Below are positions 1-47,800 of a stretch of 53,124 bases of DNA, in pieces. The stretch spans positions 1-53,124 of the IMG/VR virus record IMGVR_UViG_3300043470_000833; one strand, 5' to 3'. This DNA is from a virus. The translations under genes were made by a program, and so were the position numbers. The notes under the pieces were generated by a model, which ran no database searches, was not told the origin of the DNA, and worked only from the letters and a program-made list of their open reading frames with translations. Within the stretch, counting starts at the first letter, position 1. Each line of letters begins with the position of its first letter.

Positions 1-900
1 ATGAACCACTTATTCCGCTACTTCCAGAAGTTCCAGAAGAACCGCTTGTTCCAGATGAACCACTTGTTCCGCTACTTCCAGAAGTTCCAGAAGAGCCGCT
101 TGTTCCACTACTTCCAGAAGTTCCAGACGAACCACTTGTTCCGCTACTTCCAGAAGTTCCAGATGAACTGCTTGTGCCACTACTTCCAGAAGTTCCAGAT
201 GAACCACTTATTCCGCTACTTCCAGAAGTTCCAGAAGAACCGCTTGTTCCAGATGAACCACTTGTTCCGCTACTTCCAGAAGTTCCAGAAGAGCCGCTTG
301 TTCCACTACTTCCAGAAGTTCCAGAAGAACCGCTTGTTCCAGATGAACCACTTGTTCCGCTACTTCCAGAAGTTCCAGACGAACCACTTGTTCCGCTACT
401 TCCAGAAGTTCCAGAAGAACCGCTTGTTCCAGATGAACCACTTGTTCCGCTACTTCCAGAAGTTCCAGAAGAACCGCTTGTGCCACTACTTCCAGAAGTT
501 CCAGATGAACCACTTGTTCCGCTACTTCCAGAAGTTCCAGAAGAGCCGCTTGTACCACTACTTCCAGAAGTTCCAGATGAACCACTTGTTCCGCTACTTC
601 CAGAAGTTCCAGATGAACCACTTGTTCCGCTACTTCCAGAAGTTCCAGAAGAACCGCTTGTGCCAGAAGAGCCGCTTGTGCCACTACTTCCAGAAGTTCC
701 AGATGAACTACTTGTTCCGCTACTTCCAGAAGAACCGGATGAACCGCTTGTTCCAGAAGAACCGGATAAACCGCTTGTTCCAGAAGAACCAGATGAACCG
801 CTTGTTCCAGAAGAGCCAGATGAACCGCTTGTACCAGAAGAACCTGAAGTTCCACTGCTTCCGCTAGTACCACTTGATCCACTTGTGCCTGATGAACCAG
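1..900 (-). repeat. Gly-Ser/Thr collagen-like tandem repeat tract
   Basis: Degenerate 9-bp and 18-bp units encode GTS/GSS triplets on the minus strand, with glycine at every third residue and almost only Ser or Thr between. The tract continues past the left edge. A shorter copy lies at about 1376-1465 in the same gene. Near-identical units such as 'cttccagaagttcc' recur every few tens of bases, so slippage or recombination could change the tract length. Confidence 0.9.
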
Positions 901-30298: not shown

Positions 30299-30315
30299 AA
30301 TAGATAACAATAAAA

Positions 30316-30347
30316 AACCCCAGTCGAAAGACTGGGGTTCTTTTTTT
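30316..30347. terminator. Bidirectional rho-independent terminator
   Basis: A perfect 10-bp stem (30316-30325 paired with 30330-30339) closed by a GAAA tetraloop, with T-rich tails on both strands: seven T's at 30341-30347 on plus, and six A's at 30312-30317 giving T's on minus. It lies between the convergent stops of the probable major tail protein and the 170-aa protein and can end transcription from both sides. Confidence 0.93.
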
Positions 30348-30349
30348 AC

Positions 30350-30862
30350 TTATGGATGACCATATCCATATGGATAATAAAAAAATCCAGATCCTGTAAA
30401 TATCGGCGAACCATCTTCACCAGCCACTTGCACAGGCGCAGCTTGATAAATATTGTAACTAGATACTAATCTTTCCATTTCTTCTCTAGCGTCATTAGCT
30501 AATCCGCGATATGTTTTTGCAAGTTCGTTTTTATTTGTACGCGTAATCATTGTGTCGCCTTCACGCAAAGTCACGAAATCTACAGAGCTATCTACTCCGC
30601 GCAAAACTTGGCGAGTCTTTTTTGTATAAAACTCATACAAGTACATTTGCTTATATATTGCTCTTTCTTCTTGTTGAAAAAACCCTGTTGGTTCAAAATT
30701 AGAATTTTGTACTGAATATTGGCTGTATATTTTTGTATTTAACAAACCAACATTATTAGCAAGCCATCCTGAAATATAATAAAATTGAGCATAGCCGCTA
30801 TCATACTCAAATTCATTCGCGAATATTTCATCAGCTAAATCATGTACACTATAAGCTACCAT
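30350..30862 (-). CDS. Phage structural protein of unknown role (possible neck protein)
   Basis: This 170-aa protein has a helical N-terminus ('VHDLADEIFANEFEYDSGYA'), 'ISGWLANNVGLLNTKI', and a central aromatic helix ('EERAIYKQMYLYEFYTKK'), ending in an aromatic tail ('GFFYYPYGYGHP'). The general layout reminds me of small proteins next to connector genes in marine siphophages, but I cannot name a family. It follows the APS-kinase-like gene after 9 bp, on the same strand, and its GTGTAAG motif covers that gene's stop codon. It ends at the bidirectional terminator. Confidence 0.45.
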   Translation of the reverse strand: MVAYSVHDLADEIFANEFEYDSGYAQFYYISGWLANNVGLLNTKIYSQYSVQNSNFEPTGFFQQEERAIYKQMYLYEFYTKKTRQVLRGVDSSVDFVTLREGDTMITRTNKNELAKTYRGLANDAREEMERLVSSYNIYQAAPVQVAGEDGSPIFTGSGFFYYPYGYGHP

Positions 30863-30870
30863 ATATATAT

Positions 30871-30877
30871 CTTACAC
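30871..30877 (-). promoter_or_regulatory. GTGTAAG start-proximal motif (one-base variant)
   Basis: GTGTAAG, 8 nt before ATG 30862 (spacer ATATATAT). As at 3639-3645, the GTG-TAA is the last codon and the stop of the upstream gene. Confidence 0.35.
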
Positions 30878-31327
30878 TTTTTTATTTAACTTACGAACTA
30901 ATTCGTTGTATATCATTTTAGAATAATAACTGCTATTCTTACTTTGAACTTCAATATCAAACTTTTTGGGCGGCTCAAACACTTTATTAGTATCTTCGTA
31001 TGTTGATTCGTTAATGGTATTCATAAATATTAAAAAATCAGGATCAAATTGATTTCTGGTTTTTTGAAACGGACATACAAAGTCGCAAATGACTATTTCA
31101 TTATACTGACCGTACATGTCGGCCAAATCTTTCATTCTTTTACCTTGACGTTCACGACCAGCTTCACTGAAGTCCCAATCGTTGAATTGTTCACGAACTT
31201 TATCTGCGTTTAACCAATGACATTTATAATGATGGCTCAAAAGATAAGATAAATCTGCCGCTAATGTGGTTTTACCAGATCCCGGCAAGCCCATAATTAA
31301 TACCTTTAAAAACGAACCAATTGGCAT
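30872..31327 (-). CDS. cysC: Adenylylsulfate (APS) kinase-like protein
   Basis: This 151-aa P-loop kinase resembles APS kinase (CysC), which phosphorylates adenylyl sulfate to PAPS, the universal sulfate donor. It has Walker A 'GLPGSGKT' (13-20), 'NADKVREQFN' (40-49; compare 'DGDNVR' in CysC), 'DWDFSEAGRERQGKRM' (50-65; compare the 'D.GFS..DR' loop that grips APS) and 'FEPP' (117-120), also a CysC feature. It is shorter than bacterial CysC (about 200 aa) and lacks some C-terminal elements. The start at 31327 is needed for the first beta strand. It begins 10 bp from the divergent sulfotransferase, which would use its product. Some phage relatives could act on other nucleotides, so the substrate is inferred. 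Confidence 0.8.
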   Translation of the reverse strand: MPIGSFLKVLIMGLPGSGKTTLAADLSYLLSHHYKCHWLNADKVREQFNDWDFSEAGRERQGKRMKDLADMYGQYNEIVICDFVCPFQKTRNQFDPDFLIFMNTINESTYEDTNKVFEPPKKFDIEVQSKNSSYYSKMIYNELVRKLNKKV

Positions 31328-31337
31328 ATTATATGGT

Positions 31338-32162
31338 ATGGTTGAAAAGATATTTTTTCAATGTTCACTACCTCGGGCAGGTTCGACACTTTTACAAAAT
31401 GTGCTGGCGCAAAATCCTGATTTTTATGCAACACCAACTAGTGGATTAATTGAAATCTTCCTTAATGCTAGAAATATTTATTCTACAAATATTGAATTTA
31501 AGGCTCAAGACATTAATGTAGTTGAACCAGCATTCAAAGCTCTTTGTAAAGAAGGTATGTTTGCATATTTTAACGCCATCACTGATAAGAAATATGTTAT
31601 TGACAAAAGCAGAGGCTGGAGCGTTACATACGATTTTCTAAACTGGTATTATCCAGAACCAAAGGTTATTGTTATGGTTCGCGATCTGCGAGCAGTTGTG
31701 GCGAGCATGGAAAAGAAGTGGCGACAATATCAGCACATTGATGCTGGCCTTCAGAACTGGAACGAACTTCGTAACACTACGGTTGATAAGAGAATAGATT
31801 ACTTTTTAATGCAAGCGCCGCCACTTGCTGTAAGTATTGATGTATTGTATGATACCGTTATGCGTAAATTAAGTAAGAAATGTTTATTTATTAAGTTTGA
31901 AAACTTCGCCAGTAATCCTCAAAGAGAAATGGAACGAGTGTACGAGTATCTTGGATTGCCGTTTTATCAACACGACTTTAATAATGTAGAACAAAAGACT
32001 TTTGAAGATGATCGTATGCACATTCCTTTTGGTGACCATACAATTCAAAAAGTAATCAAACCAGTGCCTAACGACTATATAGATATTCTTGGAAAACAGA
32101 ACTGCGATAATATATACAACAAGTTTTCTTGGTTCTATAAAGCTTTTAGTTACGATTATTAA
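31338..32162 (+). CDS. PAPS-dependent sulfotransferase family protein
   Basis: This 274-aa protein has the 5'-phosphosulfate loop 'CSLPRAGSTLL' (residues 9-19, matching the 'PRSGSTLL' form) and the 3'-phosphate-binding segment 'VMVRDLRAVVASMEKKW' (112-128) with R115 and S123. 'VIDKSRGW' (87-94) fits the substrate-side region of carbohydrate and protein sulfotransferases. The family transfers sulfate from PAPS to hydroxyl or amino groups of sugars or proteins. I chose ATG 31338; the open frame extends to 31266 but those residues are antisense to the kinase P-loop. The acceptor is unknown. No signal peptide or membrane anchor is seen, so it should act in the host cytoplasm. It is followed after 40 bp by a 93-aa gene and then two glycosyltransferase genes. 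Confidence 0.88.
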   Translation: MVEKIFFQCSLPRAGSTLLQNVLAQNPDFYATPTSGLIEIFLNARNIYSTNIEFKAQDINVVEPAFKALCKEGMFAYFNAITDKKYVIDKSRGWSVTYDFLNWYYPEPKVIVMVRDLRAVVASMEKKWRQYQHIDAGLQNWNELRNTTVDKRIDYFLMQAPPLAVSIDVLYDTVMRKLSKKCLFIKFENFASNPQREMERVYEYLGLPFYQHDFNNVEQKTFEDDRMHIPFGDHTIQKVIKPVPNDYIDILGKQNCDNIYNKFSWFYKAFSYDY

Positions 32163-32202: not shown

Positions 32203-32484
32203 ATGAGCGACCCAACATTCCCAATTATCAATCTACCAAGTGCTGTAGAAATTCAACAAGCTGCTAATACCAGTCAAATCGAAATCCTTCAAACCACAGA
32301 CGACCCAATCGGTAAGACTGTAAAGAGTTTGGTAAAGATATCAACCACTCCTTACGCTCATAACTGGTATACAGTATGGTCTGGAGATACATATGATCAA
32401 GCTGGTCAATGGACGGACGCCCAATTGTCTGCCGCCATCGTTACTCTAGTAATGGCAGAATATCCTCCCGCTTTGACACGATAA
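32203..32484 (+). CDS. Small phage protein of unknown function
   Basis: This 93-aa protein ends at tandem stops (TAA TAA). It is Thr/Ser/Ile-rich in the first half ('SAVEIQQAANTSQIEILQTT'), with an aromatic middle ('HNWYTVWSGDTYDQAGQW') and a helical C-terminal part. No family is recognised and no membrane segment is seen. It is flanked by a GTGTAAA motif upstream and a terminator-like hairpin downstream, so it may be expressed as its own short transcript or as the end of the sulfotransferase transcript. Confidence 0.6.
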   Translation: MSDPTFPIINLPSAVEIQQAANTSQIEILQTTDDPIGKTVKSLVKISTTPYAHNWYTVWSGDTYDQAGQWTDAQLSAAIVTLVMAEYPPALTR

Positions 32485-32520
32485 TAACTGTAGAAAACAA
32501 TACTAAAAAAACATAAAATA

Positions 32521-32552
32521 CCTCAAGGACATATTGTTCTTGAGGTTTTTTT
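32521..32552 (+). terminator. Terminator-like hairpin abutting the next start codon
   Basis: Stem of 10 bp including one G-U pair (32521-32530 with 32536-32545), loop ATATT, then seven T's ending at 32552. The ATG of the glycosyltransferase follows at 32553 with no gap and no ribosome site. It could terminate the 93-aa gene transcript, or act as a leader hairpin. Confidence 0.75.
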
Positions 32553-33317
32553 ATGGCTGAAAAAAAGAAAGTATTAATCGCAACTCCATCTTACGACGGT
32601 AAACTGGATGTTTATTATATCGACTCACTTCTAAACACTTTATCATTAGCTGAAAAGAATAATGTAGAAGTATATCCATTGTTTATTTGTTACGACTCTC
32701 TTATTCAACGTGCGCGAAACGATTTATTTAAACTTGCTTATAGTAACGATATTGATAATTTGTTTTTTATTGATGGTGATGTAGGTTGGAATCCTCAAGA
32801 TTTTTACAAGCTGGTAAAAAGCGACAAAGATATTATCGGTGGATCTTATAGAAAAAAGACTGACAACGAAGAGCTTTACGTTGTGAAAGCTCTTGATAAA
32901 GATAATTCTAAATTAAATTTGAGCGTTGATAAAGACGGCATTCTTGAAGTGGCAGGTTTAGGTTGCGGGTTCATGAAAATTTCTCGCAAAGCTATGAACG
33001 CTTTATGGGAGATTTCCAAACCGTATACCTCAGAAAAAGGTGACACACGAATGGTATTTGAAGTCGTTTGTGAAGACGGCGATCTTATCAGCGAAGATAT
33101 TTATATGTGTAAGAAGTGGCGCAATCTTGGTAATAGCATTTATCTCGATACCAACATCACATGTTCGCACACAGGCGCGAAGACGTTCGTAGGAGACGTT
33201 GGTAAATGGATCAACTCTTTTAAAAATCAAAATACCTTCAATCCACAACCGACAACCGATCTGTCTAAATATTTTGTAAAGAATAATGATGAAGATGATT
33301 TTAAAGTTCTTGTATGA
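32553..33317 (+). CDS. GT-A fold glycosyltransferase
   Basis: This 254-aa protein begins 'VLIATPSYDGKLDVYY' and has the metal/nucleotide-binding DxD motif in 'FFIDGDVGW' (DGD at 74-76), followed by 'DKDIIGGSYRKK' near 91-102. This arrangement is common in phage and Anp1-like GT-A glycosyltransferases that transfer sugars from nucleotide donors. 'LGCGFMKISRKAM' near 137-149 is another common element of the group. The start directly follows a hairpin and T-run. The stop overlaps the next gene (ATGA), so the two glycosyltransferases are coupled. Donor and acceptor are unknown. Confidence 0.8.
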   Translation: MAEKKKVLIATPSYDGKLDVYYIDSLLNTLSLAEKNNVEVYPLFICYDSLIQRARNDLFKLAYSNDIDNLFFIDGDVGWNPQDFYKLVKSDKDIIGGSYRKKTDNEELYVVKALDKDNSKLNLSVDKDGILEVAGLGCGFMKISRKAMNALWEISKPYTSEKGDTRMVFEVVCEDGDLISEDIYMCKKWRNLGNSIYLDTNITCSHTGAKTFVGDVGKWINSFKNQNTFNPQPTTDLSKYFVKNNDEDDFKVLV

Positions 33318-34276
33318 CGGATATTTACGCAGACATTATTTTATTTGATAGCATAGGTTCTTCATACGATGGAAATACCATGCACAAATGTGGAATGGGC
33401 GGCAGCGAGTTTCAAGCCATTTTACTTCTTGAAGAGTTAGCTAAAGAAGGATATAAAGTTATATGCCTAAACAATTCTAACAAAGAATCTTTTGTAAATG
33501 GAGTGTTGTATGCGCCAAACAAGTTGGTTGATAGTTATAAATTCAAGTGCAAGAATTTAATAATCCACAGGTATAGCGAAATTCCTAAAATCGCTCACAA
33601 AAAAGCATTCATGTGGGCAACCGATTTGAATGGCGTTCATAATCTAAAATTCTATAAACTATTTGAAGAAAAGAAACTAACTTTAATTACCCTCAGTAAT
33701 TTTCATAACGATTTGTTTCCAAAATCTTGGGACAAGCATGTAATTTATTTCATGATACCTGATTGGGTATATGAGTATTCTATACCAGAGAACAAGAAAG
33801 ATTATATATACGCCAGTAGTTTAATGAAAGGATATTCATCCACATTACCATTATGGAAATATCTAAAAAATGAAAAACTACTTAGTAAAACTGATGTATT
33901 GAATGTGTGTTTACCGGGATATGACAATCCGACCCAAGACATAAGCGAAAAAGATTATGGAATTAATTATCTTGGAACTTTGAAGTTTAAAGAAGTTATA
34001 GAACTGATGGCGAAATGTCGCGGCATGTTTTATGTCAACACTATGCCCGAGACTTTTGGCATAAGCGTTGTACTATCCGACATATTAAAGACGACACCGT
34101 TTGTTTATGGTATAAACGGTCTAGGAAGTTTATCTGAATTAATAAATAATAAAAATCTTACTACCGACATGCAAGAATACATTAATATGTTTAAAACTTA
34201 TTCAAGCTTAAATGAAACGCCGCGAAACTTCCGCCCAAAGATGGTTATTAAATGGTGGAAGAAAGTATTGATTTAA
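33314..34276 (+). CDS. GT-B fold glycosyltransferase (GT4-like)
   Basis: This 320-aa protein has the GT-B N-terminal glycine motif 'CGMGGSEFQAILLLEELAKE' near residues 26-45 and the C-terminal donor-binding element 'PETFGISVVLSDIL' near 244-257, as in GT4 enzymes (E-x7-E region, here with D in place of the second E). A 'YASSLMKGYSSTL' segment near 170-183 marks the domain linker. It is translationally coupled to the GT-A gene by ATGA. It ends at a TTAA shared with the opposite FkbM gene, with no terminator between. Probably sequential glycan assembly with its partner. Confidence 0.75.
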   Translation: MTDIYADIILFDSIGSSYDGNTMHKCGMGGSEFQAILLLEELAKEGYKVICLNNSNKESFVNGVLYAPNKLVDSYKFKCKNLIIHRYSEIPKIAHKKAFMWATDLNGVHNLKFYKLFEEKKLTLITLSNFHNDLFPKSWDKHVIYFMIPDWVYEYSIPENKKDYIYASSLMKGYSSTLPLWKYLKNEKLLSKTDVLNVCLPGYDNPTQDISEKDYGINYLGTLKFKEVIELMAKCRGMFYVNTMPETFGISVVLSDILKTTPFVYGINGLGSLSELINNKNLTTDMQEYINMFKTYSSLNETPRNFRPKMVIKWWKKVLI

Positions 34277-34902
34277 GGTCTAATAAATAATAGACTTTCG
34301 GCAATCAATTCGTTCTTATCGTTCATAACTGTTTCGACTGGCATAATATAATCAAATTTTAGATCAAACATTTTGTTTAATATTTGATCTTTATTGCAGC
34401 CGCCTTCATTATAATTATTAAAAGATACTTCGGTGATAACAACTTTAGCGTTTTTAAAAGTATTTATACCGCCTTCTATAATATCTAATTCACTACCTTG
34501 AGTGTCTATTTTTATAAGATCGTAAATATCTTTCACACAATCATCTAATCTATAAATCGGCAACTCTTCGACTATCAAATTTTGTTCGTTATATGTTTGC
34601 GAGTTTTCTTTGTATATAGAATTGCCAGAACAAATTGCACTCCATTTTGTTTTATAAAATTTAGTTGTACCGTTGATTTTACCAAGCAATTTTATTTGAT
34701 AATCGTAAAGTTGTTTCTGGTATAACTTTTCGCACTCAGCGTTTCCTTCGAATAATAATATGTTTGCGACAGGCCAGATTTGGCGCATAATGTCTGCCGT
34801 TTGGCAGACACTTGCACCGATATCTAATATATTTTTAGGATAAAATCCTTTGTCTCTGAGTAAGAAACAAATTTGAGAATAATAGTCATAAGAATAACCC
34901 AT
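34273..34902 (-). CDS. FkbM family SAM-dependent methyltransferase
   Basis: This 209-aa protein has SAM-binding motif I 'ILDIGAS' (25-31), an acidic residue after beta strand 2 ('LLFEGNA', 49-55) and the FkbM hallmark 'LIKIDTQGSELDIIEGG' (129-145). These enzymes O-methylate sugars or polyketides; in phage and bacterial glycan clusters they cap sugar hydroxyls. The start is 20 nt after the stop of the fibre-chaperone-like gene, so it belongs to the leftward fibre operon while facing the two glycosyltransferases tail-to-tail. This location fits a shared role in glycan decoration. The first coding bases contain a perfect 8-bp inverted repeat at 34791-34810. Confidence 0.85.
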   Translation of the reverse strand: MGYSYDYYSQICFLLRDKGFYPKNILDIGASVCQTADIMRQIWPVANILLFEGNAECEKLYQKQLYDYQIKLLGKINGTTKFYKTKWSAICSGNSIYKENSQTYNEQNLIVEELPIYRLDDCVKDIYDLIKIDTQGSELDIIEGGINTFKNAKVVITEVSFNNYNEGGCNKDQILNKMFDLKFDYIMPVETVMNDKNELIAESLLFIRP

Positions 34903-34922: not shown

Positions 34923-35525
34923 TTAAGCATTAAAGCCTGGTATTGGATGGAATCCAGAAACACCGTTAAAGCTTGGCATTGGAGGAAATGGAGGTATAGT
35001 TATATTTGGAGCAGATGTCGGAATGGTGGGCCACACCGCTTGAGTAATATCTGGGATATCTAACATTGTACGCAACTGTTGTCTGAAATTTTTAAAATCA
35101 AGTTTCGCGGCATCAGACATTGGCGAATCAGACGACTGAGTAAAATCAGTTATCACAAGATATCTATCTCTTATTGTTCTTATGCTTTGTTTTAATTGTT
35201 GGGTGCGGATTTCTATTTCTGAAGTATCTGCGTTTTGTATTGAATAAGAAATTGTGCAAGTTTTTTCATTAATATTGAGTGTTTTGGTTTCTATCAATTT
35301 TTGATCAATGTTTATTGATGGTTTTTCATTAAAGATAGCGACCCAAAACGCTAAATTTGGACTACCTTGCCAAGTTAAATCAGATAACAATTCAGGTGAA
35401 TTTTGTTCTAAAAAATTAAATCCACTTGTTGGTCCAAATGATTCCGGCAAATAATTTGGGCCTTGAATTATAGAGTAATTCTGATTATCGATTTTGGTGA
35501 CTAAAAAATATTGTTTGTTGTTCAT
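34923..35525 (-). CDS. Tail fibre assembly chaperone-like protein
   Basis: This 200-aa protein has a C-terminal half resembling caudoviral fibre-assembly/DUF4376-type proteins: 'YLVITDFTQSSDSPMSD' near 123-139, then a 'FRQQLRTML' helix and 'AVWPTIP' near 163-169; the 'TD....D.P' and 'WP..P' elements are typical of the group. The end is proline-rich ('PPFPPMP'). It lies directly downstream of the giant fibres and the LamG gene, where fibre chaperones are usually found. A TATAAATA box occupies the 22-bp gap upstream. Confidence 0.6.
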   Translation of the reverse strand: MNNKQYFLVTKIDNQNYSIIQGPNYLPESFGPTSGFNFLEQNSPELLSDLTWQGSPNLAFWVAIFNEKPSINIDQKLIETKTLNINEKTCTISYSIQNADTSEIEIRTQQLKQSIRTIRDRYLVITDFTQSSDSPMSDAAKLDFKNFRQQLRTMLDIPDITQAVWPTIPTSAPNITIPPFPPMPSFNGVSGFHPIPGFNA

Positions 35526-36364: not shown

Positions 36365-39300
36365 TTATAAACTTGTGCTAACTAGCCCTTGAGCAACAAC
36401 AGTTCCTATCCAAACACCTGTTGTTCCCTGATAAGAGGTTAACATATATACATCTGCATAACCAGATACTCCAGTTATTGTTGGGGTGATACCATTCGCC
36501 CATAACACATTAGTCCATGTAATAGAAGCTGTGCCGCCATATTTTATAACTAACATGATTGTATTTACAGAAGGGTTGGCAGTTCTATTGTTATATGTGA
36601 AACTAGATATTGTTGTTGAAGCGGCTAAAGTTAAAACATGAATACCAGCAGCATTGACATCAATTGTGCATCCTACTGTTCCGCTTAATGATTGAGATGC
36701 GCTTTTTTGAACGTATGAGTTTGCTCTTACGACGTTTAAAATACTTGTGCTTGCTGGATCAGTATAATAAGTGGTATCATTACTATCATAAAACATTTGC
36801 GCTCTCATGGACGATCCATCAGCCAATGTATAATCTCCACCAACGACTCTTATTCTCCAATTACCATCTTGATTTAAAAGTCCTACATCATTATTGGTAT
36901 CTGCGTAAAAATACCCACGAACTGTTCCATTGTGTCCTCCAGTTCTTAATCTTATTCCTTGTGCGCTTGCAGAGCTTGCAACATTCCAATAATTAACACT
37001 ATCAGAATAAAAATGCTGACCAGTTGCTTCATTATATAAACCATTACCACTCGTAGTACTTCTAAACCAATTTGCAGTATAATATTGTGCTGCTGTTATA
37101 TTACCGGCTGCGGTAATAGCGTTTAAGTTGCTTGTGCTGGCAGGATCACAATAATATCCAGTATTATCCCAATCATAAAAAAGTGTTCCGCGAACATCGC
37201 CTGGAGTCCTAAGACTTCCTCCTCCCCACGCGCCTTTGAACACACCATTTTCTAGTATTAATAATCCATGACTTGCTAGATTACCTGCCGCTCCACCAGC
37301 ATTTTGATGAGACCAAGCAATACCATACAAATTACCAGTAGTGGTTCCATCAGCGGCTAATTTATAAGAATCACCCATCGCAAATACGCCTTGATATCTG
37401 CTTGCAGAATAAACACCAACTACAGTATTTCCATAATTATCATCAATATAAAAATTACCGTTTGCTCTTGTTGCTTTTGTGGCTAAAGTTGTAGTGGCGG
37501 AATTACCAGTGCAAGAAGCAGAACTTCCACCAGCATTACCTGTAATGTTTATACTCCATGTACCGCTTGCATTTGCGCCTGTCAAAGATGGATATGAACC
37601 ATCTGTTACTTGACTTCTAAAATGAGCAGGTGTTGATTTTCTTAAATAATTATCCCCTGTACTTTGTGTCCATATTTGTCCAATTGTTGGATTTTCACTG
37701 TTTCCCGCACTGGAATTAAAATATCCACCAAATATATAATTTCCTATTATATGCCCACTACTATCTCTATAAACAATTGTATTTGCAGTAGCAGCGGTTG
37801 TAGGATTGTTAAATCCACTGATTGAACCGGCAGTACCTGTACATGAAGTTACTGTTTGTGATGCAATATTACCAGTATGAATCATCTCCACCCAACTTCT
37901 TAAAGTCGGCCAAGCACTTCTCCAAAAAAACCTGTTATCTGCTTCTCCTGCACAGAGCATCTGGAAGCCATATCCATTTACATTATTTTGATGATTGTAA
38001 TGAAGACTCTGAAACCCTACATAGTGACTTGAACTACCCGGTCCGTTTGCTGGATTAGTCCAACTATCAATAAAACCAGAACCCCAATTAGAAAACATGT
38101 GATTACAATCAACAGTACTCCAACCCATTGTACCATTACGATAAGCTGCCCCAGAGTTATATCTAGTAACATAAGGTGAATTGACATGCATTGAATTCAT
38201 GTCGTTGTAAGACATAGTAAGAGTACTAAACTTGTTTAAGTTAGAAGTACCTGCGGGATCTAAATAATAAGTAGTATCATTAGCATCTCTGAATTGAGTA
38301 CCATCAACATTTCCAGTGAATGCAGAATATCCAACGTAGTTAGAACTATCTAATAATCTAATCCAACTTCCAAAACTGCTATTATAATTTCTTGTCCATA
38401 ATCCTGTATTCCACATGTTATTAGCAATTTGGAATCCATAAGCTTGATCGCCGGGATTAGATCCAACTGAAAGACCTGTTGTGTATGTACTTGCTGATGG
38501 CGCAGATGTTCCACCATCATTACCACCCCAGTTATAGAATGCCCACATACCTGTTCCAGCATGTGGATATCCAGATTGACCACTTGTTCTAGTTGCTGTT
38601 GCAGCATTACCAGTACAAGAAGCAGAACTTCCACCAGCATTACCTGTGATACTTCCGGTAATTGTATTAACGACAGTTAAACCAAGTAAGTTGCTTGTAC
38701 TTGCTGGATCTGTATAATAAGCTGTATTATTACTATCGTAGAATATTGGCGCTCTCCAAGAACCCGTTGCGTATCCAGCCTCTTCAGCAATTCTAAGTGT
38801 AAATGGTTCAGCGCCATTAGACTTTCTGAATATAAAATATCCATCACTGGTATTTTGAAAATACAAATGACTACTGTGCCATTGTATTTTATTTTGTTCT
38901 CCAGTCCAAGCAGCATGGTCTCCAACAATTGCGCCTGCAATTCTTAAAGAAGTTCCAGCGGCTGGATCTAAATAATATGCAGTATTATCAGTATCATAGA
39001 AAATTGGCGCTCTTACTGAAGCGGCAGATGCAAAAATACCAGATTTAGTTTGAGTGCCTGATCCTATATCTACAACTAAATTATTATCATTATAAAGACT
39101 CGCAGCACTTCTGACTGGATATCTAGCGAGTATTTCTGCTGAGACGTTATTTGCATTAGCTCTTGTAGTAAATACACTTGAATCGGCAGCAGTAAATGTA
39201 GTTAATGTTGAATGATTTGTTGCTGAAACACCATCATACGCTGTTACTGTGGCATTAGAACCAATTGGAGTTCTAATTCTATATTGTGCGCCACCAACGC

Positions 39301-42300
39301 CGCCACCTCTCAACCATATGATAACTCCACCATTTACTGGATAACCCAATCCAGCAACCATTGTGCTATAACTTTCATTGAACTCAATTATTCTTATCGC
39401 TTTATCATTTCCTCCCCAAGCGGTATCACCAGACCATTCCCAATCTAAAGTTAAACCGCCTTTATGACTTGCAGTGTTCCATGTATCAGGTCCAGTCCAA
39501 TTATAACCTCTAGTAACACTATATCTTCCAAAACTATATAAATATTCTCCTTGTATTAAGACAACGTAATAAGTATTAACATCACCATAAACATATATAT
39601 CTTTATAATCATTTGAAAGATTATAATAAGCGTTAACGTATAAACCATTCAATACAGAATTACTGGCGGGATCACAATAATAACCAGTATCATTACTATC
39701 ATAAAAAATAGGCGATCTTAAGCTAGAATTAGCTTGTAATGTGTAAGTTACTGTTGCTCCACCATAATATAAAAATGAAGCGGGTGTAGATTTGTCTCCA
39801 TAGAATATAAACTCACCACCATATCCTACTCCATAAACAGTTGGATTAGCATCAGTAATTTCCATATAACAATCAAGCCCACCATCTTCAATACCAATTT
39901 TTGTAGCTTGAATTGCTCCAGCAAAATATGCTGAATAACCTGTACTTGAAGGATCTACATAATATGCAGTATTATTACTATCATAGAATATAGGTGATCT
40001 CACGCTACCACTAGAAAATATATTTCCAGAAGTATCTACTCCACCAACTGTGGCTCCCGCCGCTTCTGAAAAGAAATGAAAATCTGCTGTTCCTACTAAT
40101 TGCGATGACATTCTTTTTCCAACGTACCAACCACTTCCACTGCCACCAATATATCTAACCATAGCTTCAGAGCCATTTCCAGGATTAATTATTAAATAAG
40201 TATTTTTAGCTCCAACTAAACTTAAATTGTATAAAGAGCTTGTGCCATTTGGATCAACATAATAAGCAGTATCATTACTATCATAAAAAAGAGGTGCGCG
40301 GGCGCTAGTTCTAAATTCTACATAACTACCGTCTTGATTTGGATAAGCTTTGTAAGACCAATCCCAACTGCTACCATCAGTAGCGCCTTTTCCACCATAT
40401 AAATAATATGCAGCATCACTAGCTATATGATGCAACCAATAACCTAAACCACCATTTGTTTGTCTTTGAACCATCGAAGCGTATGTGCTACGAATGGTAA
40501 AACTTTCATGACCAGAACCAAAAGGTGAACTGCCCCAATCGCCATCGATTTGTAAATATTTTAATTTACTACCAGAAGCGCCATCAATATAATATGCTGT
40601 ATTATTACTATCATAGAAAATTGGTGCGCGGAAATCAGTATCAGAATTCCAAGTGCCATACAATGTTCCTCCTGAACTTGAACTTCCAAAGTTATATCTT
40701 ACTGCCCAATTTCCTGTATTGTTTAATATACCGCCGCCACCAGAATCCCAATATCCAATATATCCTTTTAGAGCATCACTTCCGTCTTTAATTTGAATTC
40801 CACCTAAAGATGTTGAATCAGATTTAAAAATTAAATATTGAGTGTTGTTTCCAACAAATCTTGTTCCTGCATTAAAATGAATTTGTGCATTATAGTTAAT
40901 TTCCTTATTTTGCATATGGAAATGTCTACGCCAATTTAAATAAGTTGTATCATTTGTTACATAATCAAATAAAGCAGTATCGGTTCCAGCATTTCTTGTA
41001 TACCAAGTAAATGTATAACCGCTATCCCAATACCATCTAGCACCATAATCACTACCAGCAACACTACCTTCACCGAAAAATAATGATGCGTCACCAGAAT
41101 CTGTTGCACCAATTCTTATTATATCATTTACAAATACAGTATCACCACCAGCATTTCCTAAATATGTGTTACCATTAACCGTTAAATCATTGGCGACAGT
41201 TAAATTATTTAAATTACTTGTGCTTGCAGGATCTAAATAATATGCAGTATTACCGCTGTCATAAAATATAGGAGCGCGAACATCACCGCTTGCTGTAAAT
41301 GAACCAATAGCATTAAACTGATATTGAGATGCTGCTGCGGTAGCTGTACCAAAATGCATTCCAATTACATCGTAACCACCTACACCTCCAGATCCCTGAA
41401 AGTATGCAAGTCCATAGCCATCAGAGTTACCAAAACTCCATATACGGTTACGACCAGCAGCGTAGGTAGCAGTCTGGAATCCTCCACTAGCAGAGGAGAC
41501 GACTCCAGAGAACGTCGAGTAGCCACCATAATTACCAGTCGTTAATCCATTTGTAGCTGTAGCGGCATTACCATCAATACTAACTCCAGTAAGAGTTTGA
41601 GATGCTGATCCTCTATTAAGAGCAATAGATGTTGTGCCAATAAAATGAGTGCTGTTTCCAAGAACACCTGAAGGAATAGTTCCACTAAGATTACCAGCGG
41701 TTAAAGTCGAACTAGTATATAATCCATTTGTAACAGTCGCCGCGTTACCAGTAATACTTGTTGCTAGTTCAACTTTAGATATTGTAGTAACTCTTGTCAA
41801 AGCGGATGTAGTCGCATCTGTAACCGTCCATCCTTCTAAAGGAGCATTGCCTTGATCATAAATACATCTTACATTAAATCTTCCATAATAAATAAGACCA
41901 GATAAATGCAAGCAAACTTTCCCGCTTGCATTTGTTCCGATTGAAACAGTGCCGGGATTCCAAGCGCCTAAATTAGTGTAACTTAAATTTGTCCAGCTAT
42001 TTGTATAAGCGTACCACACTATTTCTAAATGTATTGGCACCCCATTACCGTAAGCGTAGCCCTCAATAATTACAGTAGGCATGTTGAATGTGCTGTAATC
42101 GATATTTGTAGTTATTAAATATCCATTTGTAGGAGTTGCGCCTCCTCCATAATACACGCAAGTTAAACCATGATTGGCGGCAGATATAGTAGCTGCTCTT
42201 AAATTATTTAAGTTACTAGTAGAATTAGGATTAAGAAAATAACCAGTATCATTACTGTCGTAGAAGATCGGCGCTCGGAAATCAGTATCAGAATAAGCCG

Positions 42301-44794
42301 AACCAACTACATGTAATTTATTAGCAGGGCTTGTTGTGCCTATACCAACATTGCCATTACCCAATATATTAACAAGATGATCGGCTGCATATAGCCCTAA
42401 AGAAAGCATGTTAAGTGCTGATCCATCAGCTACATGTCTATAACCAATATACGAGCAATTATATTGACTCTGTGCTTTACCTATGAGATTTATTGCGGTT
42501 TCAGTTGCTGCTAAATTTGCGTACATCACTGAAGATCCCCAATTAAATGCATCTGATGCAGTTCCTGCTATTCTTAAAAAAGCGACACCGTCACCACCAA
42601 CACCTGCTAAATGTAATAATGACGTAGGGCTTGTTGTACCTATACCAACTTTTCCAGCAACCAATAAAGATGTTCCTGAATTTGCGGCGTCTAAATAATA
42701 AGTAGTATTATCACTATCGTAAAATATCGGCGCACGAAATGAACCAGACGATGTGGCATTTCCACCACCAAGAGTAAATGTCCATGTTGAACCATAACCA
42801 TAATTATTAAACTCTACACTGCTTGAATTATTATACAAAATTCCTGAAGTTGTATAAGTTCTAGATCCCCAACTACCATATGATCCAGCCGTTCCGCCCA
42901 AATAAAGAATTCCACTTAATTGAGCATCACCGCTTACGCTTAGTCTTAAATCTGGAGTTACATTTCCTAAACCAAGATTTAATAATCGAGAATTACTAGC
43001 GGGATCAACATAATAAGCAGTATCATTACTATCATAAAAGATTGGCGCACGAAATGAATTCGGTTCAAGAGTATAGTCAATATATTTTGCTAATTCACCA
43101 GTGGTCGCTCCACCACCAAAAATTCTTGTTATACCGCCAGTGCTGCCTAAATTTCCATAACCAATATACATACCATCATTAGTAGCATTATTACGCATAA
43201 CTCTCATGTTAGCGTATACATCGCTACTTGCAGTATCAAATGCGCTATAAACTCTTAAACTAGATAAACGAGAAACACTGTTTGGATCAACGTAATATCC
43301 TGTATCGTTGCTATCGTAAAAAATAGGTGCGCGGAAATCTGACGACGCAGTAACAACTCCATTTTCTTGTACTCTAAATAATTCTGTACCAGCTTTGATT
43401 GCATTATTTTGTACAATAAACGCATCGGCTGTAGCATTATTATTACTATCAATGCTTACATATACATTACCCGCACCTGCTAGATATAAACCATTACCTG
43501 ATGAAGCATTTTGAGCCAAAGTTAAATCATAATTATTATCAACTTTTAAATAAACATTTGAAGGATCAAGTGTTCCAAAATACAACGCTCCAGCCCCTGC
43601 TGCTGATGCGATTCTTGCGTCTCCAGTTATATCTAATTTATAACCGGGACTTGTTGTACCTATACCAACATTACCATTGCCAAGAACACTTAATCTTTCA
43701 TTTAAAGTGCCTGTTTGATATACAAAAAATCCAAGTCTGTCACCGGCAGCACCATTTGCATCATTTACTTCTATTTTTGCTCTTTGACTATTATCACTTA
43801 CTCTGAAACTAACTACAGGTACATTTGTACTAGTAGAAGACAAAAGAATTCCTGTATTGAGATCTGAACCTCCGGTTACTTTAAATGATCCTCCGTAAAC
43901 ATGTAATTTATCACTAGGACTTGTTGTACCTATACCAACATTACCATCCGCCTGAATACGTAATTTTTCAGAAGAGCCAGCAAACATTCTTATCAACTGA
44001 CTACCAGCGTCTAAGAAAGCCCCTGTAGCATCAGTTCCTATATAAAAACCATATGCAGATGCGCCAAAACAACCATATCCATTTACATCAAGAATTGAAC
44101 CGGATCTAATACTTGTTTTACTTACCCCTACGCTGCCCGCAACTAATAAAGATGTTCCAGTATTTGCAGGATCTAAATAATAAGCAGTATTTGTAATATC
44201 ATAAAACGATTGAGCATAAATATTATTTACAACTCTTACATTACTGTCTGCATTTCCAACTGAAAAAATTTCTGTGCCTTCTCCGACAAGATTATTATAA
44301 AACCTAGTCCCACCGTAGCCATAGTAAGCCCCTATTCTTATTCCAGTGTGCCAGTTTAATGTGAGCTTAGAGTAATTGCCTCCAACATTCTCCATCGCGG
44401 TGAATATTTTATAGGCTTGGCTGGAAGTATAATCTCCACCAAATGTTAGGCCGGTTCCAGCCGTTCCACCAGCACCAACAGTCCACGGTTGAGCGTTATC
44501 AGCGCCAAAATTTAGTCGCGTTAATTGTAATGTGGCAAATGTAGGACTATTGCTACTTCCTACGTTTTGATTAATTGTATATGCAGTTATATTGGCGGCA
44601 TTACCATCAATACTAACACCAGTTAGTGTTTGTGCGCCGCTCGCTCTATTAAAAACATTTTGTGTAGTACCAATATAATAAGTAGCATTACTTGCTACAG
44701 CATAACTGCCAATGTTACTGGCGGTTACTATGGTTGTTGTTGATTGTCCACCATCCGCTGTTCTTAGTGTTGAACCATGATTAAGAATTGCCAT
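36365..44794 (-). CDS. Giant tail fibre with 'RAPIFYDS' repeats
   Basis: This 2809-aa protein contains about 15 copies of a motif such as 'FRAPIFYDSNDTAYYVDP', spaced by variable beta-rich inserts of ~60-350 residues, and four 'VGIGTTSP..KLHV' shaft motifs in the N-terminal third. Segments such as 'QTLTGVSIDGNAA' and 'TGNAGGSSASCTGNAAT' recur. The C-terminal ~110 residues ('SQSLSGTVGCTIDVNAAG' to the end) form a distinct beta domain, probably the fibre tip; there is no S74 chaperone. Coding is continuous over 8.4 kb. It lies 22 bp after the YadA-like fibre and just before a LamG gene and a fibre-chaperone-like gene. Likely a long trimeric side fibre. Confidence 0.85.
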   Translation of the reverse strand: MAILNHGSTLRTADGGQSTTTIVTASNIGSYAVASNATYYIGTTQNVFNRASGAQTLTGVSIDGNAANITAYTINQNVGSSNSPTFATLQLTRLNFGADNAQPWTVGAGGTAGTGLTFGGDYTSSQAYKIFTAMENVGGNYSKLTLNWHTGIRIGAYYGYGGTRFYNNLVGEGTEIFSVGNADSNVRVVNNIYAQSFYDITNTAYYLDPANTGTSLLVAGSVGVSKTSIRSGSILDVNGYGCFGASAYGFYIGTDATGAFLDAGSQLIRMFAGSSEKLRIQADGNVGIGTTSPSDKLHVYGGSFKVTGGSDLNTGILLSSTSTNVPVVSFRVSDNSQRAKIEVNDANGAAGDRLGFFVYQTGTLNERLSVLGNGNVGIGTTSPGYKLDITGDARIASAAGAGALYFGTLDPSNVYLKVDNNYDLTLAQNASSGNGLYLAGAGNVYVSIDSNNNATADAFIVQNNAIKAGTELFRVQENGVVTASSDFRAPIFYDSNDTGYYVDPNSVSRLSSLRVYSAFDTASSDVYANMRVMRNNATNDGMYIGYGNLGSTGGITRIFGGGATTGELAKYIDYTLEPNSFRAPIFYDSNDTAYYVDPASNSRLLNLGLGNVTPDLRLSVSGDAQLSGILYLGGTAGSYGSWGSRTYTTSGILYNNSSSVEFNNYGYGSTWTFTLGGGNATSSGSFRAPIFYDSDNTTYYLDAANSGTSLLVAGKVGIGTTSPTSLLHLAGVGGDGVAFLRIAGTASDAFNWGSSVMYANLAATETAINLIGKAQSQYNCSYIGYRHVADGSALNMLSLGLYAADHLVNILGNGNVGIGTTSPANKLHVVGSAYSDTDFRAPIFYDSNDTGYFLNPNSTSNLNNLRAATISAANHGLTCVYYGGGATPTNGYLITTNIDYSTFNMPTVIIEGYAYGNGVPIHLEIVWYAYTNSWTNLSYTNLGAWNPGTVSIGTNASGKVCLHLSGLIYYGRFNVRCIYDQGNAPLEGWTVTDATTSALTRVTTISKVELATSITGNAATVTNGLYTSSTLTAGNLSGTIPSGVLGNSTHFIGTTSIALNRGSASQTLTGVSIDGNAATATNGLTTGNYGGYSTFSGVVSSASGGFQTATYAAGRNRIWSFGNSDGYGLAYFQGSGGVGGYDVIGMHFGTATAAASQYQFNAIGSFTASGDVRAPIFYDSGNTAYYLDPASTSNLNNLTVANDLTVNGNTYLGNAGGDTVFVNDIIRIGATDSGDASLFFGEGSVAGSDYGARWYWDSGYTFTWYTRNAGTDTALFDYVTNDTTYLNWRRHFHMQNKEINYNAQIHFNAGTRFVGNNTQYLIFKSDSTSLGGIQIKDGSDALKGYIGYWDSGGGGILNNTGNWAVRYNFGSSSSGGTLYGTWNSDTDFRAPIFYDSNNTAYYIDGASGSKLKYLQIDGDWGSSPFGSGHESFTIRSTYASMVQRQTNGGLGYWLHHIASDAAYYLYGGKGATDGSSWDWSYKAYPNQDGSYVEFRTSARAPLFYDSNDTAYYVDPNGTSSLYNLSLVGAKNTYLIINPGNGSEAMVRYIGGSGSGWYVGKRMSSQLVGTADFHFFSEAAGATVGGVDTSGNIFSSGSVRSPIFYDSNNTAYYVDPSSTGYSAYFAGAIQATKIGIEDGGLDCYMEITDANPTVYGVGYGGEFIFYGDKSTPASFLYYGGATVTYTLQANSSLRSPIFYDSNDTGYYCDPASNSVLNGLYVNAYYNLSNDYKDIYVYGDVNTYYVVLIQGEYLYSFGRYSVTRGYNWTGPDTWNTASHKGGLTLDWEWSGDTAWGGNDKAIRIIEFNESYSTMVAGLGYPVNGGVIIWLRGGGVGGAQYRIRTPIGSNATVTAYDGVSATNHSTLTTFTAADSSVFTTRANANNVSAEILARYPVRSAASLYNDNNLVVDIGSGTQTKSGIFASAASVRAPIFYDTDNTAYYLDPAAGTSLRIAGAIVGDHAAWTGEQNKIQWHSSHLYFQNTSDGYFIFRKSNGAEPFTLRIAEEAGYATGSWRAPIFYDSNNTAYYTDPASTSNLLGLTVVNTITGSITGNAGGSSASCTGNAATATRTSGQSGYPHAGTGMWAFYNWGGNDGGTSAPSASTYTTGLSVGSNPGDQAYGFQIANNMWNTGLWTRNYNSSFGSWIRLLDSSNYVGYSAFTGNVDGTQFRDANDTTYYLDPAGTSNLNKFSTLTMSYNDMNSMHVNSPYVTRYNSGAAYRNGTMGWSTVDCNHMFSNWGSGFIDSWTNPANGPGSSSHYVGFQSLHYNHQNNVNGYGFQMLCAGEADNRFFWRSAWPTLRSWVEMIHTGNIASQTVTSCTGTAGSISGFNNPTTAATANTIVYRDSSGHIIGNYIFGGYFNSSAGNSENPTIGQIWTQSTGDNYLRKSTPAHFRSQVTDGSYPSLTGANASGTWSINITGNAGGSSASCTGNSATTTLATKATRANGNFYIDDNYGNTVVGVYSASRYQGVFAMGDSYKLAADGTTTGNLYGIAWSHQNAGGAAGNLASHGLLILENGVFKGAWGGGSLRTPGDVRGTLFYDWDNTGYYCDPASTSNLNAITAAGNITAAQYYTANWFRSTTSGNGLYNEATGQHFYSDSVNYWNVASSASAQGIRLRTGGHNGTVRGYFYADTNNDVGLLNQDGNWRIRVVGGDYTLADGSSMRAQMFYDSNDTTYYTDPASTSILNVVRANSYVQKSASQSLSGTVGCTIDVNAAGIHVLTLAASTTISSFTYNNRTANPSVNTIMLVIKYGGTASITWTNVLWANGITPTITGVSGYADVYMLTSYQGTTGVWIGTVVAQGLVSTSL
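36740..44220 (-). repeat. Fifteen 'RAPIFYDS' protein repeats
   Basis: By eye, 15 copies of (F)RAPIFYDSxNTxYYxDPxxxSxLxxL, including three diverged ones (near 36740, 38260 and 44180). The inserts between copies share little, so the motif looks like a common structural joint between different fibre modules. It is a degenerate protein-level repeat, not a DNA tandem repeat. Confidence 0.88.
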
Positions 44795-44816: not shown

Positions 44817-47800
44817 TTACTTATTTAATTGCTTTTTTAACTCTGCGAGTTCGGCGGCCAACTCATTTACTGCACTAATCAATACAGAAGTTAGTTTCGA
44901 ATAGTTTACACCTAAAGGACGACCATTTTCATATTCTACTAATTCTGGATATACTTGGGCGACTTCTTCCGCAATCAATCCTAGACTGCGTTTGTTGTCT
45001 TTTTTGTAATTAAATGATACAGGCGACAGTTTGGCGATTTTGGCGGTTTGACTGCTTAGTTTTTTGACATTTGTTTTGGCGACAACACTTGATGTTTCAA
45101 CTAATGTTGTACAAGTAATTGTGCCGACGACTTCTAGTTTGGTGCTTGGAGTTGTTGTACCTATACCAACGTTTCCGCTCGTATCAATTCTAACTCTTTC
45201 ATTGTTATTCGTTGCAAAAATAATATTTCTACTATCAACCGTACCTATACTTAAAGCATACGCTGATCCGCCAGTTGCCCATAAATTATTACCAGCAGAA
45301 TTATCCAAACCAATTAAACTTCTATTAGATACCCAATTATCATTTGAAAACGCTATATAAAATTGATTAGTAGATGTTGCTGGTTGCAATTGTATAACTT
45401 TACTATCGCTTACGATATGTGTTTTACTATTTGGGCTATTTGTTCCTATACCAACATTACCACTACTATCAACATTTATTCTTCTATTACCTTGGCCGTC
45501 AGCAATTATAATGTTATTGGCAATTGTGGCACTTAATCCTGTGACGTTTGCGCCGAGGATTGTGTTGTAGTTGCCTGTGGTAATACCACGACCAGTGTTA
45601 TAACCAATAGCGGTATTTTCTCTAGCTGTAGTTATATCGTAACAAGAATAAGAACCAAATGCACTATTATTTAGACCAGTAGTATTCAGAGCTAAAGAAT
45701 CTTTTCCAAAAGCAGAGTTACCAACACCTGTAGTGTTACTATATAAAGCGCTATATCCAAATGCATTATTTTTTGCGCCTATTGTATTTGCTTGTAATGC
45801 ACTTTTACCTACAACAGTATTAGAAACACCCGTAGTGTTATAATACATAGCATTTAAACCTATAGCAACATTATTATTACCTATTGTATTATTTAATAAT
45901 GATGAATTACCAACGGCGACATTGTTTGCACCAATTGTATTGCTTTGTAAAGCTGATCTACCAAATGCGCTATTGTTGCTGCCTGTAGTATTAGTATATA
46001 ATGACAAATAACCAAATGCACTATTCTCAGTACCAATTGTATTTACTACCATCGATTGAAAACCAACTGCTGTATTTCTAACACCTGTTGTATTTTCTCT
46101 TAACGCTTGGACACCCACCGCTGTATTTTGACCACCAATTGTATTAATTTTTAATGCATCAGAACCAACTGCGGTATTGTTTGTACCAATTGTATTATTT
46201 TGTAAAGCTCTGTAACCAAAAGCTGAATTATTAGCACCAGTTGTGTTACCAAATAATGCTACATATCCGAAAGCGCTATTATTGCTTTGTGTATTGCCAT
46301 ATAACGCTTTATAACCAAATGCGCTATTATTGTTTCCACTAATATTACTATATAAAGATTGATTGCCAACCGCAACATTTCTATTACCGATAGTATTAAC
46401 TACTAAAGCATTATTACCTATACCAATATTATTGCCACCAATTGTATTAGCTTCTAAAGCGCTTACACCAAATGCGAGATTTTGCTGTCCTGTAGTATTA
46501 CCAAATAAAGAATTAACGCCTACCGCTGTATTATAACTACCAGTCGTATTTGCTATTAATGCGCTTCTACCAATAGCGATATTAAAATTACCTATAGTAT
46601 TTGCTTTTAAAGCGTCATAACCAAATGCACTATTAGCTTGACCTACGGTATTAGTTTTTAAAGAGTAACTGCCAAAAGCGGTATTCTTTATGCCAGCTGT
46701 ATTTTCTTGTAAAGCTGATCTACCAACAGCAGTATTATGCGTGCCAGTAGTATTAGCTGATAAAGCGCTTGTGCCAACTGCTACGTTATTTGCGCCGGTT
46801 GTATTATATCTTAAAGAGTTAACACCAAATGCAACATTATTATTGCCAATAGTATTATTCAATAAAGCGTAAACACCAACGGCAACATTACTTGAACCTG
46901 TTGTATTGAAATTTAAAGCGTTAGCGCCAAATGCGCTATTATTTGTGCCAATTGTATTATCATTTAATGCTTTGTAACCAAATGCACTGTTATTATTTGT
47001 TGTGTTAGCGTATAAAGCATAATAACCGAAAGCACTATTTGCTACACCTACTGTATTACTGTATAAAGATCTAAATCCTAAAGCGCTATTAGCTCTACCT
47101 GTTGTCTGACTAAGTAAAGATTGAAAACCTACAGCGGTATTATTATTTCCTATAGTATTATTTTGTAAAGCAGCATGACCTACAGCAACATTTTGTGTAC
47201 CAATTGTATTAGCAGTTAATGCTTTATAACCAAACGCACTGTTATTATCTGTACTATTACTATATAAAGCTTCTCTACCAAATGCTGAATTTCTAGAACC
47301 TGCATTATTATTTAATAAAGCGTAGTTTCCAAATGCACTATTATTAACACCTGTTAGATTGCTTTGTAAAGCAGCACGCCCAAAAGCAGCATTATGTGTA
47401 CCTATTGTGTTATTTCTTAAAGCGTAAAGACCAAATGCGCTATTATTAAAACCACTTGTATTTGCATATAATGATCTATAACCAACTGCGGTATTATTAC
47501 CACCAGTGGTATTATAAACTAACGCATCTCTACCAAAAGCACTATTAAAGTTACCAAATGTATTAGTATATAAAGCATAAAAACCAAACGCACTGTTAGC
47601 TTGACCTGTGGTATTAGACTTTAAAGCATAAAAACCAAACGCACTGTTTTGTACACCACTTGTATTATTTCCCAACGCAGCAAGACCAACTGCGGTATTA
47701 CGACTACCTGTTGAATTAGAATACAATGAATACGCTCCAACCGCAACATTATATTGTCCAATCGTATTATTATATAATGAAAGAGCGCCAATTGCTACAT

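Follow-up and report, generated by a model that had tools for sequence, protein, structure and literature searches.

We propose that two divergent genes of this virus form a phage sulfation module, a reading to which we assign a probability of roughly three in four. The window analysed here is an entire IMG/VR virus record of 53,124 bp, which contains a lambda-like siphovirus tail module and two giant fibre-like genes. From the observed families, residues, fold and gene linkage, we infer that an APS-kinase-like P-loop kinase (151 aa; 30872..31327, minus strand) would convert APS to PAPS by phosphorylating its 3' position. The divergent sulfotransferase (274 aa; 31338..32162, plus strand) would then move the sulfate from PAPS to a sugar hydroxyl in a glycan that the adjacent glycosyltransferases and an FkbM methyltransferase may assemble or trim. 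A sequence-only reading had described such a pair, divergent and 10 bp apart, and both reading frames lie at the positions it gave. The Walker A motif, the APS loop and the two PAPS-binding motifs (SLPRAGSTL; R115...S123) that it had named are all present.

The kinase was identified by Pfam, by an AF2 model and by fold matches. It scores 53.5 bits against the Pfam APS_kinase cut-off of 21.1 (3.5e-14), with an alignment that covers only positions 5-91 of the 152 in the model and stops ahead of the lid. It belongs to the PHROG family phrog_10255 ('kinase'), which covers kinase-nucleotidyltransferase fusions; the window holds the kinase half only. The AF2 model, calculated from a 57-row alignment, has a pLDDT of 96.2; the alignments for structure models were built from the collected loci, with two rows from GenBank phage records omitted. 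In a Foldseek comparison with the PDB, the 50 best matches listed are all APS kinases or PAPS synthetases, with a TM-score of about 0.8 by query length, and the solved APS kinases among them share 17-24% identity with the window kinase. Additionally, the kinase family profile matches the archaeal APS kinase 2yvu at 6e-21.

Most residues expected to contact the substrates are retained. The Walker A motif GLPGSGKT (residues 13-20; 31268..31291, minus strand) includes G13, G18 and K19, which are invariant in 57 kinases. The LDGD motif of APS kinases has its counterpart in LNAD (residues 39-42; 31202..31213, minus strand), in which the invariant D42 aligns with D480 of Mtb CysC, the proposed catalytic base of that enzyme (PMC4373884), and N40 replaces D478. 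Position 40 is Asn in 17/17 members of the window's kinase clade and Asp in 40/40 of the other clade. The APS-binding loop extends from R45 to R58 (31154..31195, minus strand); both arginines are invariant, F53 is Phe or Tyr throughout, and Q61 takes the place of the APS-loop Asn in the window's clade. In Mtb CysC, F492 and F576 sandwich the APS adenine, R497 binds its N1, and the lid (residues 552-581) carries R559, K562 and F576, with K562 and R559 acting from the lid (PMC4373884). The FEPP motif noted earlier is indeed found, but the lid that it ends is shortened (30968..31021, minus strand): the Pfam match stops before it, and the segment over which the phage proteins can be aligned is shorter. 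The window kinase therefore departs from strict family membership in two features, the incomplete LDGD motif and the lack of a lid of about 30 residues with the catalytic Lys and the second stacking Phe. It also scores 45.1 bits against the curated apsK cut-off of 138.7 (TIGR00455), and for this reason we file it as APS-kinase-like and not as an apsK equivalog. The APS-kinase identity claimed by the sequence-only reading holds for the fold and most contact residues, but not for the truncated lid and the altered LDGD. Judged by fold, contacts and context, the protein would work like an APS kinase, with APS as its predicted substrate.

The sulfotransferase matches Sulfotransfer_3 at 1.6e-18, over the Pfam cut-off, and falls in phrog_27463, where its function is unassigned. 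Its best solved relatives are tyrosylprotein sulfotransferases, with a PDB match at 5e-8 and a profile match to TPST1 at 2.7e-18, and its nearest curated family is NCBIfam NoeE, at 4.4e-13 and 48.7 bits, well under the cut-off of 500. Across 27 phage sulfotransferases, P12 and R13 of the 5'-PSB loop SLPRAGSTL (residues 10-18; 31365..31391, plus strand) do not vary. The 3'-phosphate-binding site, R115...S123 (31680..31706, plus strand), is likewise invariant at both residues in the 27, and these align with the Arg and Ser of TPST1 MVRDGRASVHS. The phage family also has invariant R92 and W94 (DKxRxW) and H234. The region of the TPST glutamate base, GEET, is TPTS in the phage family, and therefore protein-tyrosine sulfation is not implied. 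We consider the gene to encode a probable PAPS-dependent sulfotransferase acting on a sugar.

The arrangement of the two genes is itself conserved. The mechanically called sulfotransferase frame begins at GTG 31266 and overlaps the kinase; the gap is 10 bp (31328..31337) because the start kept in relatives is ATG 31338 (MVEKIFFQ...). Related contigs keep the head-to-head layout with exactly 10 bp between the start codons, even where the kinase is at 64-68% identity. A 170-aa gene with no family match (30350..30862, minus strand) follows the kinase on the same strand after 9 bp, and a terminator-like hairpin (30312..30343, minus strand) closes this transcription unit. In the opposite direction, a conserved 93-aa gene (32203..32484, plus strand) lies downstream of the sulfotransferase and is followed by a second terminator-like hairpin (32520..32546, plus strand). 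Since the 10-bp gap starts both units, any promoters would lie within the two coding starts. When the window is compared with relatives that have no kinase, the homology starts at base 31337, one base before the sulfotransferase start, and in some of them it continues to about 34848. The homology forms a single block from that base, and thus the sulfotransferase, glycosyltransferase and FkbM genes move as one piece with respect to the kinase.

Beyond the second hairpin are a glycosyltransferase-like protein (32553..33317, plus strand; phrog_1574 at 2.7e-24, with a weak match to the glycosyltransferase family phrog_12406) and a probable second glycosyltransferase (33314..34276, plus strand), recognised by eye with no family match and conserved in its order with the cassette. 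They are followed by an FkbM-type methyltransferase (34273..34902, minus strand; PF05050, 8.3e-12), a tail fibre assembly chaperone (34923..35525, minus strand; phrog_4912, 7.1e-13; PF16778, 8e-07) and a giant fibre-like protein of 2809 aa (36365..44794, minus strand), a candidate for the acceptor side. The second giant fibre, of 2712 aa, carries NTTGxNNSAFGY-type repeats (44817..52955, minus strand) which by eye resemble YadA-head repeats; its 5' end may lie upstream, because the reading frame starts with TTG. Window positions 1-953 hold repeat-rich reading frames with long self-similar matches to the fibre repeats of two loci (L013 and L019), and a phrog_31248 match is found at 174-953. No tRNA was found in the 53-kb window.

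A glycan is the likeliest acceptor, given the genes for glycosyltransferases, FkbM methyltransferase and fibres next to the pair. Of the targets suggested earlier, a virion glycan, a fibre Ser/Thr or a host surface glycan, this neighbourhood favours a glycan over bare Ser/Thr, but it does not fix a single target; the Ser plus Thr content of the giant fibres, 21-22%, is not decisive. The adjoining tail fibres make a virion glycan the preferred acceptor, a choice that follows the neighbourhood only and is a guess. It is quite possible, if not what we expect, that the same chemistry acts on host LPS or capsule, for receptor masking or superinfection exclusion. Phage glycan-modifying genes often target host surface sugars, and NoeE, the nearest curated sulfotransferase, acts on a lipochitooligosaccharide; however, the cassette accompanies tail fibre and chaperone genes both in the window and in its relatives.

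To examine the linkage more widely, 248 sequences (the window and the collected loci) were scanned with profiles built in this analysis. After dereplication, 70 phage kinase lineages had 3 kb of flanking sequence in each direction, and in 46 of them a sulfotransferase lies inside that distance, mostly overlapping the kinase or within 30 bp of it and usually with the sulfotransferase preceding the kinase. A small nucleotidyltransferase of about 120 aa with an HxGH motif is found near about 58 of the 70, and among the identified neighbours only this gene is more frequent than the sulfotransferase. GT9-like genes, assigned by eye with no Pfam match, are near 38/70, an FkbM-like gene near 14/70 and a carbamoyltransferase near 8/70. 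The genes occur in several arrangements: divergent and 10 bp apart, as in the window; as sulfotransferase, kinase and nucleotidyltransferase in that order on a single strand, where the start of one gene often overlaps the stop of another; as a kinase-nucleotidyltransferase fusion with the sulfotransferase nearby (L065, L088, L092, L093); and as kinase plus nucleotidyltransferase with no sulfotransferase. In several phage lineages NodU/Nol-like carbamoyltransferases adjoin the kinase (L059:8520-10007; L216:4209-5846; L065:7164-8858), and carbamoylation and sulfation are also paired in Nod-factor synthesis.

The kinase tree has two clades (SH-aLRT 100), with sulfotransferase-linked members in both. 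Presence of a sulfotransferase changes 14 times on this tree, compared with 27.5 changes in shuffles. Occurrence of one gene without the other at the rate expected by chance, which the sequence-only reading had named as grounds for abandoning the idea, is not seen overall, but the linkage is uneven. A sulfotransferase is present in 71/80 loci of the clade retrieved with the L033 query, in 4/35 loci of the outer relatives of the window clade and in 2/41 loci found with the nucleotidyltransferase query, and most window-clade kinases have none nearby. Sampling is biased toward linked clades, because the L024 and L033 kinase queries came from beside sulfotransferases. Taken over phages, archaea and bacteria and over several arrangements, the predicted coupling of making PAPS and using it is well supported by comparative genomics, strongly in one kinase clade but sparsely in others.

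Several loci break the pairing. Six close relatives carry the sulfotransferase cassette with no adjacent kinase, and two of them have another kinase elsewhere on the contig; among contigs of at least 45 kb with a sulfotransferase and no adjacent kinase, the corresponding figure is 4/6. In loci L017 and L018 (contigs L252 and L251), a different APS-kinase-like gene lies between glycosyltransferase-like and DHFR-like genes, and the sulfotransferase cassette on these contigs has no divergent kinase. The cyanophages S-SKS1, S-SCSM1 and S-SRM01 encode a sulfotransferase but lack an APS kinase. PAPS may come from their Synechococcus hosts, and an APS kinase is found in the Synechococcus elongatus genome used as a control. 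Of the 22 kinase phages that have no Sulfotransfer_3, five encode a Sulfotransfer_2 protein over the cut-off (one borderline), among them the cultured phage DLP_6, whose own annotation reads 'sulfotransferase'. No recognised sulfotransferase was found in the other 17, including the complete 56-kb genome of Xanthomonas phage AhaSv, in which Sulfotransfer_1, _2 and _3 proteins were looked for. AhaSv (OR820514.1, 15213-15959) and its relatives Suzuki, Bhz60 and Clavibacter phage 33 carry a kinase-nucleotidyltransferase fusion annotated as 'kinase' or hypothetical, and in AhaSv a few genes separate this fusion from an annotated cysteine dioxygenase. As both sulfotransferase-only and kinase-only phages exist, we reject the strict pair as the functional unit. 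The two genes are linked, as had been suggested, but the unit is wider: its usual third member is the small nucleotidyltransferase, of which this contig has no copy.

The kinase could be an auxiliary metabolic gene of assimilatory sulfate reduction (cysC), making PAPS for the host PAPS reductase and cysteine synthesis, with the adjacent sulfotransferase a coincidence. Phage cysC genes have been so described in surveys: 62 were reported in freshwater phages as sulfate assimilation genes (PMC10914622), and cysC is also described in Challenger Deep viruses (PMC9529941). However, a PAPS reductase (PAPS_reduct) is encoded in 0/30 kinase-bearing phage records, a set that lies outside the window, and this makes the assimilation readings doubtful. 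The frequency of the sulfotransferase as a neighbour and the head-to-head layout in the window also speak against coincidence, and we regard this explanation as unlikely.

In most modules related to the proposed sulfation module, APS would be supplied from ATP and sulfate by the HxGH nucleotidyltransferase, which follows, or is fused to, most phage kinases. This protein has GRxQxxHxGH and ISxTxxR motifs and near-invariant R38 and R85. Its nearest solved sequence relatives are NMN adenylyltransferases, and its fold is like those of NMNAT and the phosphopantetheine adenylyltransferases, with ATP sulfurylase at ranks 32-33 and a similar TM-score. The phage proteins stay under the curated NMNAT cut-off (at most 38.9 bits against 127), and the solved NMNATs have Gly at the site of R38. 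Membership of the Sat family was rejected, as the Pfam ATP-sulfurylase cut-off is not reached and weak matches occur in 15/35 members, with a best E of 0.0029. The 53-kb window has no such nucleotidyltransferase and no annotated Sat- or CysDN-like gene, and the contig may be incomplete; APS would therefore be supplied by the ATP sulfurylase of the host or by the product of a gene beyond the contig.

Cellular relatives bear on what this enzyme makes. A scan of 84,980 genomes gave at least 546 confirmed relatives of the small nucleotidyltransferase. Among the best 80 of these, a kinase is present in 73 and fused in 45, of which 41 have the full APS-kinase lid motif (for example L299:7488-8345, L293:7416-8384 and L265:2417-3337, with full-length APS kinases); a CysQ-like gene lies on the locus in 21, and a sulfotransferase is adjacent in each of the six haloarchaeal loci. 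With 150.5 against 138.7, the Haloarcula fusion clears the curated apsK threshold, and CysQ of the marine archaea likewise clears its own, with 251 against 229. Of 30 genomes with the nucleotidyltransferase, 28 have no Sat and 29 no CysD at the curated cut-off, one of the 29 having a strong but split CysD match; Sulfotransfer_3 is present in 22/30, compared with 2/14 control genomes. The absence of Sat and CysD is weaker for several assemblies, because they are MAGs or single-cell genomes, and the haloarchaeal isolates weigh most. The fusions to APS kinases, the sulfotransferase and CysQ neighbours and the near absence of Sat and CysD make it probable that the nucleotidyltransferase produces APS, the simplest reading, and is a minimal ATP sulfurylase. 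In SAR11 loci (L314-L335; for example L320:4728-10141), a window-type (DWDF) kinase accompanies the nucleotidyltransferase, with an M24 creatinase-like gene, a Rieske oxygenase, a SET protein and a HalD-like oxygenase as neighbours; the SAR11 genomes tested also encode Sulfotransfer_3.

The kinase might instead make another 3'-phosphorylated donor, with the 'sulfotransferase' moving that group. An APS-kinase homologue with such a role in Campylobacter, in O-methyl phosphoramidate synthesis, is cytidine diphosphoramidate kinase. The altered lid of the phage kinases fits this idea, as does the position of the nucleotidyltransferase nearer to NMN adenylyltransferases than to Sat in sequence and fold. 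We nevertheless find it improbable, since the APS kinase to which the nucleotidyltransferase is fused in haloarchaea exceeds the curated apsK cut-off, the marine archaeal nucleotidyltransferase lies beside CysQ, the PAP phosphatase, and neither the glutamine kinase nor the hydrolase of that pathway was seen. Less probable still is a NadR-like NAD-salvage pair of kinase and nucleotidyltransferase, unrelated to sulfation, with the sulfotransferase using host PAPS: NMN adenylyltransferases are the families nearest to the nucleotidyltransferase, and an NAD synthetase-like gene was noted by eye near the L066 fusion, but the kinase matches APS kinases and not ribosylnicotinamide kinases, R38 replaces the NMN adenylyltransferase Gly, and operons with sulfotransferase and CysQ recur. 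Chance reading frames are rejected on the family matches and the conservation in relatives.

On balance, we lean towards a third, minimal class of ATP sulfurylase. This enzyme and the kinase together would carry out the whole of PAPS synthesis in about 250-300 aa, a combination that phages, marine archaea, haloarchaea and several bacterial phyla would employ along with sulfotransferases. Many 'cysC' genes of phages would then belong to sulfation modules and not to sulfur assimilation, and the pair in the window would be a variant that keeps the second step only. As far as our searches extended, an ATP sulfurylase of this kind is new. If these proposals are correct, many phages make their own PAPS, and do not only borrow that of the host, to sulfate sugars; phage cysC genes now counted in the viral sulfur cycle would receive a different reading; and archaea and bacteria possess a small, previously unassigned ATP-sulfurylase-like enzyme, in many cases in genomes that encode an APS kinase but no enzyme known to make APS. 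Within the searches made here, which had subscription papers outside their scope, no paper on a phage sulfotransferase and APS kinase pair and no demonstration of sulfation of phage virions were found.

The two proteins can be placed among known families. With the APS kinases (CysC and the kinase domain of PAPS synthetase), the window kinase shares the P-loop, the second Asp of LDGD, the Arg and Phe contacts to APS and the fold; in contrast to them it has a shortened lid, and N40 and Q61 in its clade. The sulfotransferase shares the 5'-PSB and 3'-PB motifs and the overall profile of the TPST/Sulfotransfer_3 family, but, unlike TPST, the phage family has TPTS for GEET and its own invariant Arg, Trp and His residues. 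The pair belongs to phrog_10255 and phrog_27463, neither of whose names mentions sulfation. The published phage cysC genes (PMC10914622, PMC9529941) probably belong to the same APS-kinase-like family, whereas the linkage found here points to sulfotransfer and not to assimilatory sulfate reduction. The pair is a variant of the known kind of system in which PAPS synthesis is combined with a sulfotransferase. In rhizobia, NodPQ (ATP sulfurylase/APS kinase) is linked with a Nod-factor sulfotransferase, NodH or NoeE, the latter acting on the fucose of the Nod factor. As in the phage pair, genes for making and for using PAPS are kept together for one glycan. Unlike those systems, the pair in the window is phage-encoded and divergent and has a truncated, single-domain kinase; a NodPQ-type ATP sulfurylase was not seen in the 53-kb contig, and the phage relatives use the nucleotidyltransferase of about 120 aa in its place.
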